Virus record (IMG/VR): IMGVR_UViG_3300046648_000170
Coordinates: 1 to 41,570 of that record
DNA length: 41,570 nt
Reading direction: 5' to 3' (one strand)
From: a virus
A program made the translations under genes and the position numbers. The notes under the pieces were generated by a model. The model had not been told where the DNA came from and did not search any database. It saw only the letters and a program-made list of their open reading frames with translations. This document shows positions 9,569 to 14,983 of the stretch, piece after piece (within the stretch, counting starts at the first letter, position 1; each line of letters starts with the position of its first letter).

Positions 9569-10062
9569 CGTTCACCCCGAGGACGTGGGCGGTCGGTGAG
9601 ACCGTCACCGCGGCCATGCTCAACGCGGAGATCCGCGACCAGCTGAACAGCATGTTCGACGCGTGGACCCCGTACACCCCGAGCTGGACCGCGTCCACCA
9701 CCAACCCGGTGCTGGGCAACGGGGTGCTGGCTGGCCAGTACATCAAATGGGGCCGGACCTGCACGGCAACGGTGATCCTCACCATGGGATCAACCACCAC
9801 CTACGGGTCCGGGAACTACCTGTTCACCCTGCCGTTCTCCGCGGCGGCCGCCACGGTGTCCTACCTCGGGGTGGCCCGACTCGGTACCTCCCGGATCTGG
9901 CTCGGCCACGTCGTCGTCGCCAGCGGCTCGAACCTCGTAACCGTCACGTTCGACACCAACGCGACCGATACGCGCGGCACGAACTGGACAGGGACGGTCC
10001 CCGACCCGCTGGCTGCTACGAACACGTTCCGGTTCTCCCTGACGTACCAGACGTCCACCTAA
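9565..10062 (+). CDS. Probable tail fibre / receptor-binding protein
   Basis: A 165-residue protein. The N-terminus (MTFTPRTWAVGETVTAAMLNAEIRDQL) is frequently seen in Streptomyces phage tail-tip proteins. It is followed by the beta-rich WTPYTPSWTASTTNPVLGNGVLAGQYIKWG segment, of which only the repeating Ser/Thr/Asn/Gly pattern is quoted here as evidence; the rest is strand after strand with no helix. Proteins of this type end the tail operon and are candidate receptor-binding tips. It starts within the stop of the zinc-ribbon gene and is followed by a terminator before the lysis genes. Confidence 0.6.
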   Translation: MTFTPRTWAVGETVTAAMLNAEIRDQLNSMFDAWTPYTPSWTASTTNPVLGNGVLAGQYIKWGRTCTATVILTMGSTTTYGSGNYLFTLPFSAAAATVSYLGVARLGTSRIWLGHVVVASGSNLVTVTFDTNATDTRGTNWTGTVPDPLAATNTFRFSLTYQTST

Positions 10063-10080
10063 TCCACCCCGCACACCGCC

Positions 10081-10108
10081 GCCCCGAGCCGATGCGCCCG
10101 GGGCTTTT
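10081..10108 (+). terminator. Rho-independent terminator after the tail genes
   Basis: A 6-bp GC stem GCCCCG (10081-10086) pairs with CGGGGC (10099-10104) around a 12-base loop and is followed by TTTT. It separates the tail operon from the lysis cassette and may allow read-through. Confidence 0.7.
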
Positions 10109-10127
10109 CTCATGTCTGGAGACGTAC

Positions 10128-10889
10128 ATGGCAACACCGCTGACGGCTGCGCAGTTCCTCGCGGCGCTGCGCGCGGAAGGAGTGCGCGTTGTCGAGGTCG
10201 GCAACTGGCGCACCCACAACCGGGCCGGCCATGGTGCTTGGGGCCCGGTCCACGGGGTGATGATTCACCACACCGTGACGAAGGGCACCGCGAACACGGT
10301 CGCTCTCTGCCGCGATGGGCACTCGGATCTCCCCGGGCCGCTGTGCCACGGGGTCATCGCGAAGGACGGGGTGGTGCACCTCGTCGGGTACGGCCGGGCG
10401 AACCATGCAGGCCTCGGTGACGACGACGTGCTCGCCGCGGTCACCGCGGAGAAGGCGCTGCCCGCGGACAACGAGGCGAACACCGATGGCAACGCGAGGT
10501 TCTACGGGTTCGAGTGCGAGAACCTCGGCGACGGGAAGGACCCGTGGCCGGCCATCCAGCGGGACGCGATCGTCCGTGCGTCGGCCGCCCTGGTCCGCGC
10601 TCACAAGTGGGGCGGCGACGGCGACACCTCGGTGATCGGCCACCTCGAATGGCAGCCCGGGAAGATCGACCCGCGCGGCATCTCCGGCGGCATGCCCGCG
10701 ATCCGCAAGGACGTCGCCGAGCGCCTGAAGCACCCGGCCAACTGGTCGCCGAGCGCACCGAAGCCGCCCACCGTGCCGAAGCCCCCGAGCGCACCGAAGC
10801 CCCCCACCACACCCGCACCCCCGACCGTGGCGCAGCAGATCGCTGCCCTCGACAAGCGCGTCACCGCGCTGGAGAAGAGGACCCCGTGA
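10128..10889 (+). CDS. Endolysin: N-acetylmuramoyl-L-alanine amidase
   Basis: A 253-residue cytoplasmic lysin that would cut the bond between muramic acid and the stem peptide. ATG at 10128 has GGAG 6 bases upstream. Residues 36-185 form an amidase_2/PGRP-type domain: His47/His48 in HGVMIHHTV, His93 in ANHAGLG, and GHLEWQPGKIDP with His172, Lys179 and Asp181. By analogy with T7 lysozyme these are zinc ligands and the catalytic Lys, with Asp in place of the third ligand Cys. Residues 206-232 are Pro/Lys repeats (PKPP, APKPP) and the end is a short coiled coil (AQQIAALDKRVTALEKR) instead of a usual wall-binding domain. The GTGA overlap couples it to the holin. Confidence 0.9.
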   Translation: MATPLTAAQFLAALRAEGVRVVEVGNWRTHNRAGHGAWGPVHGVMIHHTVTKGTANTVALCRDGHSDLPGPLCHGVIAKDGVVHLVGYGRANHAGLGDDDVLAAVTAEKALPADNEANTDGNARFYGFECENLGDGKDPWPAIQRDAIVRASAALVRAHKWGGDGDTSVIGHLEWQPGKIDPRGISGGMPAIRKDVAERLKHPANWSPSAPKPPTVPKPPSAPKPPTTPAPPTVAQQIAALDKRVTALEKRTP

Positions 10890-12933: not shown

Positions 12934-13167
12934 CTATGCCCGGACGAGTTCGGCGAGTGGCATGTCGAGCGCGTCGGCAATCCGGACGAGCGCGCTGTAC
13001 GTCGGGTCGCTGGTGCCCCGCTCGATGCGTTGGAGTGTCCGCCGGTTGATATTGGCCATCTCCGCGAAAGCCTCCTGCGTGAGGTTCGCCTGTATGCGCA
13101 GGCCCCGTACACGATCCCCGAACTCGCGGAGTTGTTGTGAAGTCAGGTCGGGTTCATCTCGGGGCAC
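12934..13167 (-). CDS. XRE-family helix-turn-helix regulator
   Basis: A 77-residue protein that is essentially one Cro/C1-type domain: LREFGDRVRGLRIQANLTQE, then EMANINRRTLQRIERGTSDPTY. The recognition helix (NRRTLQRIERG) and final helix (VRIADALDMPLAELVRA) are clear. GTG at 13167 is the only plausible start and has a poor ribosome site, so the mRNA may be leaderless. It lies at one edge of the candidate attP region with the integrase at the other, both read leftward. A role in immunity or in controlling integration is inferred. Confidence 0.8.
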   Translation of the reverse strand: MPRDEPDLTSQQLREFGDRVRGLRIQANLTQEAFAEMANINRRTLQRIERGTSDPTYSALVRIADALDMPLAELVRA

Positions 13168-13618
13168 TCGACAAACCTGTGACCTGCATGATCTCGTGTC
13201 AGCGACTCATGTGTCGCATTTTGCGATCATGCCCTATGACGGCCGTTCGCTCGCCGAGCACCCCCGGCGGGCGGGCGGTCCTTCCATGCACCGAGGTGCT
13301 CTGGGAGATATGGGAGACGGTTTGGGAGATGATCAAGGGGAGCCGTTGCGCTCATCTGCTAGATGCTGCGAGGTATTGCTAGATGCATACAACAGGAAAC
13401 CGCAGGTCAGCGGCATATAGCCAGGTCGGCGCATCGCCCGGATGGCATCCCGGCCGATCGACAAGATCTTCTGGGAGACCAAGAAGGCTTGATCGCCGCG
13501 CCGTTCAGCCTCGGGCTGGACTGCAGGTCAGAGCACGAATGAGAGAGGCCCGACCGCTTCGAGCGGCCGGGCCTTTCTGTCGTTCATAGATCATTTGGGA
13601 GACGATTGGGAGACGAGG
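13168..13618. other. Non-coding region with candidate attP arm sites
   Basis: No convincing gene lies in these 451 bases. They hold six copies of TGGGAGA at 13302, 13311, 13323, 13472, 13596 and 13607, three on the left, one central and two on the right, all in the same orientation. Such spaced short repeats beside an integrase gene are typical of arm-type binding sites of tyrosine integrases. The crossover core should lie between the clusters (about 13330-13595). I could not recognise a tRNA 3' end as the core. GCAGGTCAG also occurs twice (13402, 13523) and TGCTAGAT twice (13357, 13377). Confidence 0.55.
13546..13574. terminator. Strong hairpin, probable terminator
   Basis: AGGCCCG.CCGCT pairs with AGCGG.CGGGCCT around a three-base TCG loop, with one mismatch, and is followed by TTCT. 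It lies downstream of the leftward integrase and inside the candidate attP region, so it may end integrase transcripts or insulate the prophage end. Confidence 0.6.
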
Positions 13619-14983
13619 TCAGGAAGAACGCCTCTCCCGCCACTCCGCCGTTTCGTCCACTCCGTCGCCCACAGACTTCTCCCACGCCTCCTGCAGGCCC
13701 CGGGCGATGCCGAGCTCCATCTCCGGCGACGTGTGGCTGTACGTACCCTCGACGCCCTGCAACTTGTGGCCCATCCGCTCCTCGACCGCGACCCGCGGGT
13801 GCCCCTGCTCGTCCAGCCACACCTTGTGCCCGTGCCGCAGCCCATGCGGCACCATCTCCGCAATGCCGTCCACCGCAGGGAGCGCGGCCTGCGCGCGGCG
13901 GCCCTTCCGAGAGGGCTCCTCGTCCTGCCCGAGGACGGCCGGATGCCAGAACCGCCCGTAGAACTGATCGTCCACCCGGAGTGGCTTGCCTCGCTGCGAC
14001 GGGAACACAAGGTGCTCGTGACTGTTCGCCGCGAGGAGCTCGGCCAGCAGATCGCCGAGGAACGGCGGCAGGATGAGCGTCCGATAGCTGGAGTACTTCG
14101 GCGGCAGCAGCGTGAACCCCTTTGCCAACCGCAGCTTCTGGCCGGCCCGCAGCTTGTCTCCCACGGTGAGCCCGTTCGCCTGGGCAATGCCCGCGGCCCG
14201 CTCGGCGTCCGCGTGCCGAAGCGCCGCGATCGACTGCAGGGTGTCGCCCTTGGCCACGGTGTGCGTGGCCGGCTTGGTAAGCCACTGCCCCTGCCACTGG
14301 ACCCGCAACGACTTCCCGTACTCCAGGGCAAGAAGCTGCAGTTGGTCCCGGCGCAGCCCCGCCACTTCACCCATGCGCAGCCCGGTGTAGGCAACGGTGA
14401 GAATCATGGTGTACCACTGATCGCCGCGCAGGGTCCGCGCGTTCTCGGCAAGAAGGCGAGCCTGCCGCGGCGTTGGCCACACGTACTGGTCACCCGTCTC
14501 GATGGCGACATGTCGGCCCCGCTTGCGCTTCGAGCCGGCGGGCATCGGGTTGAACGGAATCAATCGCTCGTCGACCGCGTCATCGAGGAGCATGCGCATC
14601 AGGCCCTCGATGGCATCGACATAGTTCTTTTTGTACTGTGCCTTGAGCTGCGCCTGCCAAGCCCTGTAACTCATCGAGGTGATGTCACCGAGCGGGACGG
14701 TCTTCCACTTGGGGAGGATCACGGCGTTCAGGCGGCTGCCGTACGTCTGCTGTGACATCTCGGCGACGTCCATGACCTGCCGCCACTCGGCGGCCCATTC
14801 CCCGAACAGCTTGCGCCCGTCCGACGGGTTGACGAAGACCTTCCGCTGTACGTCGGTCTCTTGCGCGCGGCCCCAGTCGAGGGCGTCTTGCTTGGTCTCG
14901 AACCCGCTCTCCGAGTCGTATTTCCCGTCCGGGAGTTGATACCGGACCCGCCAGCTCTTCCCGCGCTTCTCTGCGTACGCCAC
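13619..14983 (-). CDS. int: Tyrosine-family site-specific integrase with an inserted LysM-like domain
   Basis: A 454-residue recombinase that would insert the phage at attB. GTG at 14983 has GAGAGGA upstream. Residues 1-60 are an arm-binding domain (SWRVRYQLPDGKYDSESGFE), 61-145 the core-binding domain, and 165-430 the catalytic domain. Catalytic residues are Arg203 (YTGLRMGE), Lys296 (PPKYSSYRT), His380 and Arg383 (PHGLRHGH), His406 (MGHKLQG) and Tyr415 (GTYSH), so it should be active. Between Arg203 and Lys296, residues 241-287 read as a LysM domain: HTVAKGDTLQSIAA, then IAQANGL and LRAGQKLRLA. This inserts about 50 residues into the catalytic beta-hairpin and is not usual for the family. 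Confidence 0.92.
   Translation of the reverse strand: MAYAEKRGKSWRVRYQLPDGKYDSESGFETKQDALDWGRAQETDVQRKVFVNPSDGRKLFGEWAAEWRQVMDVAEMSQQTYGSRLNAVILPKWKTVPLGDITSMSYRAWQAQLKAQYKKNYVDAIEGLMRMLLDDAVDERLIPFNPMPAGSKRKRGRHVAIETGDQYVWPTPRQARLLAENARTLRGDQWYTMILTVAYTGLRMGEVAGLRRDQLQLLALEYGKSLRVQWQGQWLTKPATHTVAKGDTLQSIAALRHADAERAAGIAQANGLTVGDKLRAGQKLRLAKGFTLLPPKYSSYRTLILPPFLGDLLAELLAANSHEHLVFPSQRGKPLRVDDQFYGRFWHPAVLGQDEEPSRKGRRAQAALPAVDGIAEMVPHGLRHGHKVWLDEQGHPRVAVEERMGHKLQGVEGTYSHTSPEMELGIARGLQEAWEKSVGDGVDETAEWRERRSS

Follow-up and report, generated by a model that had tools for sequence, protein, structure and literature searches.

The closest described counterpart of the integrase analysed here is that of Tn1549, whose small beta sheet has an inserted hairpin that touches the DNA backbone and on which both cleavage and strand exchange depend (PMC5871717). 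An extra beta-stranded insertion in the catalytic sheet is a general feature of IntTn916 enzymes (PMC8138268). Our search, which covered open-access literature, found no paper on a LysM domain in a tyrosine recombinase, and LysM is not mentioned in PMC8138268; we take this absence as weak evidence that the arrangement described below is new.

The window, by which we mean the whole 41,570-nucleotide stretch of viral DNA that was analysed, is a siphophage-type genome with genes for tape measure, endolysin, tail fibre, primase, terminase, portal and major head proteins. Its tyrosine integrase contains a LysM domain. LysM binds GlcNAc polymers and is regarded as a cell-wall sugar binder that works outside the cell; in the window it is part of a DNA recombinase and lies close to the active site.

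The integrase and its inserted domain

The integrase has an arm-binding-like N-terminus followed by a SAM-like core-binding domain and a catalytic domain, an order seen in the Pfam matches and in the AlphaFold2 (AF2) model. The gene and the parts of it that are discussed below are located in the window as follows:

13619 to 14983, minus strand: tyrosine integrase, 454 aa, GTG start (ORF translation, Pfam, AF2)
14375 to 14377, minus strand: catalytic Arg203, box I (alignments)
14279 to 14293, minus strand: hairpin strand before the insert, residues 231-235 (AF2)
14123 to 14278, minus strand: whole inserted stretch, residues 236-287, in place of a turn of 2-4 aa (alignments)
14123 to 14263, minus strand: LysM domain, residues 241-287 (Pfam, AF2, Foldseek)
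14105 to 14119, minus strand: hairpin strand after the insert, residues 289-293 (AF2)
14096 to 14098, minus strand: catalytic Lys296 (alignments)
13835 to 13846, minus strand: HxxR motif, His380 to Arg383 (alignments)
13766 to 13768, minus strand: His406 (alignments)
13739 to 13741, minus strand: nucleophile Tyr415 (alignments)

The Phage_integrase family (PF00589) matches the protein with 36.3 bits against a cut-off of 27.1, and the Foldseek matches of the whole model (Tn1549, lambda Int and XerA) show a recombinase fold. The catalytic set is complete, and R203, K296, H380, R383, H406 and Y415 are invariant in all six of the LysM-bearing integrases that we found, as well as in all close relatives.

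A sequence-only reading of the window had proposed a LysM-like domain at residues 241-287, between Arg203 and Lys296 and with the active site intact. ORF translation places these residues at exactly 14263..14123, with the letters as quoted in that reading, and the alignments agree on both the position and the intact active site. The LysM family (PF01476) matches residues 241-286 above its cut-off of 20.9 bits, both in the full protein (27.3 bits) and when the inserted segment is scanned alone (34.4 bits), and it also matches all six carriers, with E up to 0.1. In the AF2 model of the full integrase, for which a 22-sequence alignment served as input, a strand at 239-242, helices at 249-256 and 260-269 and a strand at 283-286 form a confident beta-alpha-alpha-beta block (pLDDT 90-95). 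Predicted alone, the segment shows the identical order of strands and helices at a lower pLDDT (74). In Foldseek, the great majority of PDB matches of the isolated segment are LysM domains (Thermus P60, AtlA, Kbp and contractile baseplates), with a best E of 6e-3 and none reaching E 0.001, a level to be expected of a 58-residue segment. Residues 241-287 are a genuine LysM domain, and none of the outcomes named beforehand as speaking against one (no profile match, a non-LysM fold, or a hairpin extension present in all related integrases) was seen.

The insertion site

In the AF2 model the LysM insert takes the place of the turn between strands 231-235 and 289-293, the hairpin that precedes the catalytic Lys. 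K296 lies in the following turn, between strands 289-293 and 301-304. The earlier placement of LysM in the hairpin that carries the active Lys was thus off by one hairpin, the two hairpins having one strand in common. The nearest LysM-less integrases (44-53% identical) lack the insert and have a turn of 2-4 residues at this position in the alignments; the LysM-less L062 reads QGQWLGGGKGFTQLPPKYASYRT, and the window reads QGQWLTKPA, the LysM domain and then LAKGFTLLPPKYSSYRT. Judged by these alignments, LysM is a clean insertion relative to the nearest relatives.

Elsewhere in the integrase superfamily the same hairpin tip measures 2-4 aa, about 8 aa or, in charged form, about 40 aa (L043-L047). 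The charged insert of roughly 40 aa lies at or near the LysM hairpin tip in L043, L044, L046, L047 and L050 and is probably helical. Many relatives (L005, L036-L038 and L049-L055) have an insert of 15-35 aa just past box I (e.g. SPYWPASEPDAELREEA), the second place at which the catalytic domain varies. Another insert, a LacI-type HTH (PF00356), is present in the catalytic domain of L020, L021 and L056 (Streptomyces, frames of 526-571 aa), L090-L099 and L101, where it lies between the Lys region and HxxR; PF00356 scores 52-54 bits in two of these proteins, and in the other genomes the assignment comes from a motif scan or the visible sequence.

The attachment site

The attP core of the phage matches sodN, which encodes nickel superoxide dismutase (Sod_Ni, E 2e-43), at the 3' end of the gene. 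The following features make up this region of the window:

13596 to 13613, minus strand: two TCTCCCA putative arm-type repeats on the int side of the core (13607-13613 and 13596-13602)
13542 to 13578, no strand assigned: inverted repeat, terminator-like, between int and the attP core
13456 to 13494, no strand assigned: attP core, with a sequence match to Streptomyces sodN (Ni-SOD) at its 3' end
13302 to 13329, minus strand: three TCTCCCA putative arm-type repeats on the far side (13323-13329, 13311-13317 and 13302-13308)

Beyond attP, as seen from int, lies a small gene of the Cro/C1-type HTH class (12934-13167, minus strand; HTH_3, 57 bits).

The sodN gene adjoins L006, L007, L008 and L009. 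The prophage that carries L006, in genome G001, has direct repeats of the att core at both ends, at 782,159 and inside sodN beside int, and a prophage flanked in this way indicates that the LysM integrase or its ancestor has integrated DNA. The sodN 3' end serves as attachment site for a group of Streptomyces phages, which restore the end of the gene (window 13456-13494; L006 6502-6900; L061; L081). Beside sodN in S. atratus there is a decayed integrase copy (L009 5001-5527) that is without the N-terminal part and LysM; residues from about 278 onward are left and the frame is broken.

Relative to the core, the TCTCCCA repeats of the window lie at -125, -114, +10, +159 and +171 (and +180). In the LysM-less L031/L061 (contig G067:C24; L081) they lie at -126, -115, +10, +160 and +171, and the attP core is as in the window, followed by other sequence. 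These repeats are presumably arm-binding sites, and the arrival of LysM left their spacing unaltered. As the core and the spacing are unchanged without LysM, the domain is not needed for choosing sodN, and we rule it out as the determinant of that target. The att core had no match in the LysM-less L062, L063 and L080, whose records end at the integrase stop. The window and L031/L061 integrases form a matched natural pair, one with LysM and one without but alike in attP core and arm-repeat spacing, so that what the domain does is directly testable by simple removal.

Carriers and origin of the domain

We found six distinct carriers of a LysM integrase: the window, L006 (whose integrase is identical to that of the IMG/VR record L002), L003, L004, L007 and L008. 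The other five are 72-79% identical to the window integrase and come from Streptomyces genomes or IMG/VR virus records. Three of 393 sampled Streptomyces genomes are carriers, all three already among the six, and G001 was the sole carrier in a class-wide draw of 395 genomes. No carriers beyond the six emerged from the class-wide and additional Streptomyces searches, the samples of which overlapped. In a tree computed without the LysM segment, the six form a single clade with 100/100 support, nested among LysM-less integrases; on the strength of this clade, it is likely that the integrase gained LysM once.

The nearest LysM outside an integrase that we found is that of L023, an amidase endolysin from the same virus record as the carrier L003 (48% identity over 50 ungapped columns, hhalign E 9.7e-12). 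L084, an endolysin of Streptomyces phage type with amidase and LysM, is 46% identical to the integrase LysM, and L086, a Streptomyces contractile-injection protein with CIS_tube and LysM, is 40% identical. The window phage's own endolysin (9663-10889) was rejected as the donor, since Amidase_2 is its sole domain; nor did a motif scan of the window turn up another LysM.

Selection on the domain

Pairwise omega among the carriers (NG86) is 0.11-0.51 for the LysM codons, with a mean of about 0.31, and averages about 0.18 for the left and about 0.17 for the right flank; these are rough figures, drawn from 50 codons with small counts and large synonymous distances. An omega of this size means that LysM is subject to purifying selection, with about half the stringency of that on the rest of the integrase, and the domain evolves about twice as fast as its flanks. 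Within the segment, the motif residues G246, T248, I252, A253 and N270 are invariant among the carriers, and so are the non-core residues R256, D259, R262 and R279.

Possible roles of the domain

We put at about even the chance that LysM is a captured fold which now serves as an architectural extension of a hairpin that touches DNA or an adjoining subunit. The tyrosine integrase with which these Streptomyces siphophages target sodN took up, probably once, an endolysin-type LysM, and sequence, alignment, tree and predicted fold place it in the tip of the beta-hairpin preceding the catalytic Lys. Catalytic core, attP core and putative arm sites have remained as in LysM-less kin, and selection has kept the domain folded. 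LysM would then extend the DNA-facing hairpin and touch either the DNA flanking the core site or the neighbouring protomer in the synaptic complex, and the extended hairpin may tune the stability of the complex or the direction of the reaction.

An architectural role is favoured because the best PDB match, Tn1549, has a DNA-contacting hairpin at a like position in the fold. We also count in its favour that positions 277 and 279 of the sugar-contact loop are basic in all six carriers (the loop of L007 reads ARIRVKRKI). Basic residues at position 279 are not unusual among LysM domains. Surplus positive charge was discarded as an indicator of DNA binding, since the integrase LysMs, with a net charge of 0 to +5, are not more positive than those of endolysins (+1 to +5). 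The twofold faster evolution of LysM counts against an architectural role, and it also fits a second account, rather unlikely in our judgement, in which a permissive hairpin tip took up a small, stable domain with adjacent termini and selection keeps only its foldability, sparing the enzyme. The variable length of the same tip in other superfamily integrases and the unaltered attP architecture speak for such a tolerated passenger, but LysM is retained in all six full-length carriers across 72-79% overall identity, with no loss seen, and the invariance of several non-core residues is likewise against it.

Less likely again is that LysM docks another protein (an excisionase, a host factor or a phage protein) and couples recombination to that partner. 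LysM folds are not solely wall binders, since they also work in contractile baseplates and in the cytoplasmic Kbp, and the Foldseek matches to baseplates, the Streptomyces CIS and Kbp/GINKO1, together with the architecture of L086, would suit such a function. We give a similarly low probability to the idea that LysM has been exapted as a regulatory element, with integration or excision depending on a bound ligand or partner, and that Streptomyces integrases more broadly use inserted domains (LysM, LacI-type HTH) as natural control modules.

It is very improbable that LysM acts as a ligand switch, binding a GlcNAc-containing molecule (a muropeptide, or a lipid-linked or UDP precursor) so that recombination responds to the state of the cell wall. 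The fold and the five invariant motif residues would fit such a switch, as would the window copy, which is the most canonical of the six (GDTL, GQKL). The DNA on which the integrase works is in the cytoplasm, however, and GlcNAc polymers, including chains of the length that an AtlA module requires, are not expected there. In AtlA, the sugar contacts lie around T13-A18 and D37-V41, F40 stacks on a sugar, and binding by a single module becomes detectable from three GlcNAc units upward (PMC4083421). Mapped on the carriers, T248 is retained, the D37 position has A in five of the six (A or D overall), L38 is K or R in all six and F40 is R in all six; in L007, KR replaces the GQ motif. K or R at the position of AtlA F40 is also seen in ordinary LysMs, and the L085 LysM has K there. 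Contact positions that are partly kept and a GQ motif lost in one carrier argue against glycan sensing, and the integrase LysM probably does not sense glycans. The sequence-only reading had left the choice between a structural insert and a response to a ligand; we favour the former, and the latter is disfavoured by a contact loop that is partly kept and varies between carriers, the GQ loss, the cytoplasmic setting and the LysM-less kin with the same attP.

That an ordinary hairpin extension scored as LysM by chance, as the modest single-copy Pfam score (27 bits) might allow, can be dismissed given the LysM match in all six carriers, the confidently predicted fold, the ungapped profile match to an endolysin LysM and the absence of the segment in relatives.

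Comparison with known systems

LysM and the LacI-type inserts of other Streptomyces integrases together suggest that integrases of this group repeatedly take whole folded domains into the catalytic domain, a property that is also useful for engineering controllable recombinases.

The Tn1549 integrase is the best whole-model match in the PDB, at a low TM of 0.34-0.35 that arises partly from domain motion. The strands of the LysM hairpin lie at the place of the Tn1549 hairpin in the fold, a match by fold position and not by residue; with sequence profiles, the sole catalytic domain to align was that of 3nkh, and not that of Tn1549. From the model, we infer that LysM would stand at the tip of a hairpin equivalent to the DNA-contacting one of Tn1549. 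Enzymes of the Tn1549/IntTn916 type (PDB 6EMY, 6EMZ) and the LysM integrase share the arm-binding-like, core-binding, catalytic order, but the Tn1549 hairpin is plain and short (H248-P263), whereas that of the LysM integrase has a folded domain at its tip; Tn1549 targets near-random sites, whereas the LysM-integrase phages use sodN.

The LysM-less sodN integrase L031/L061 (G067 contig C24) is 52% identical to the window integrase over aligned positions and has a like attP core and arm spacing, yet its hairpin tip is a short turn (RVEWQGAHARGGFALKPPKY) where the window has LysM. The LysMs of Streptomyces phage-type endolysins (L023, L084) reach 48% identity over 50 ungapped positions; there, LysM is the terminal wall-binding domain of a lysis enzyme, while in the integrase it lies inside a DNA recombinase. 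Engineered zinc-finger recombinases (PMC11631766) resemble the LysM integrase in having a folded domain inside a tyrosine recombinase, but they are man-made, use another site (Brec1 278/279) and carry a known DNA-binding domain.
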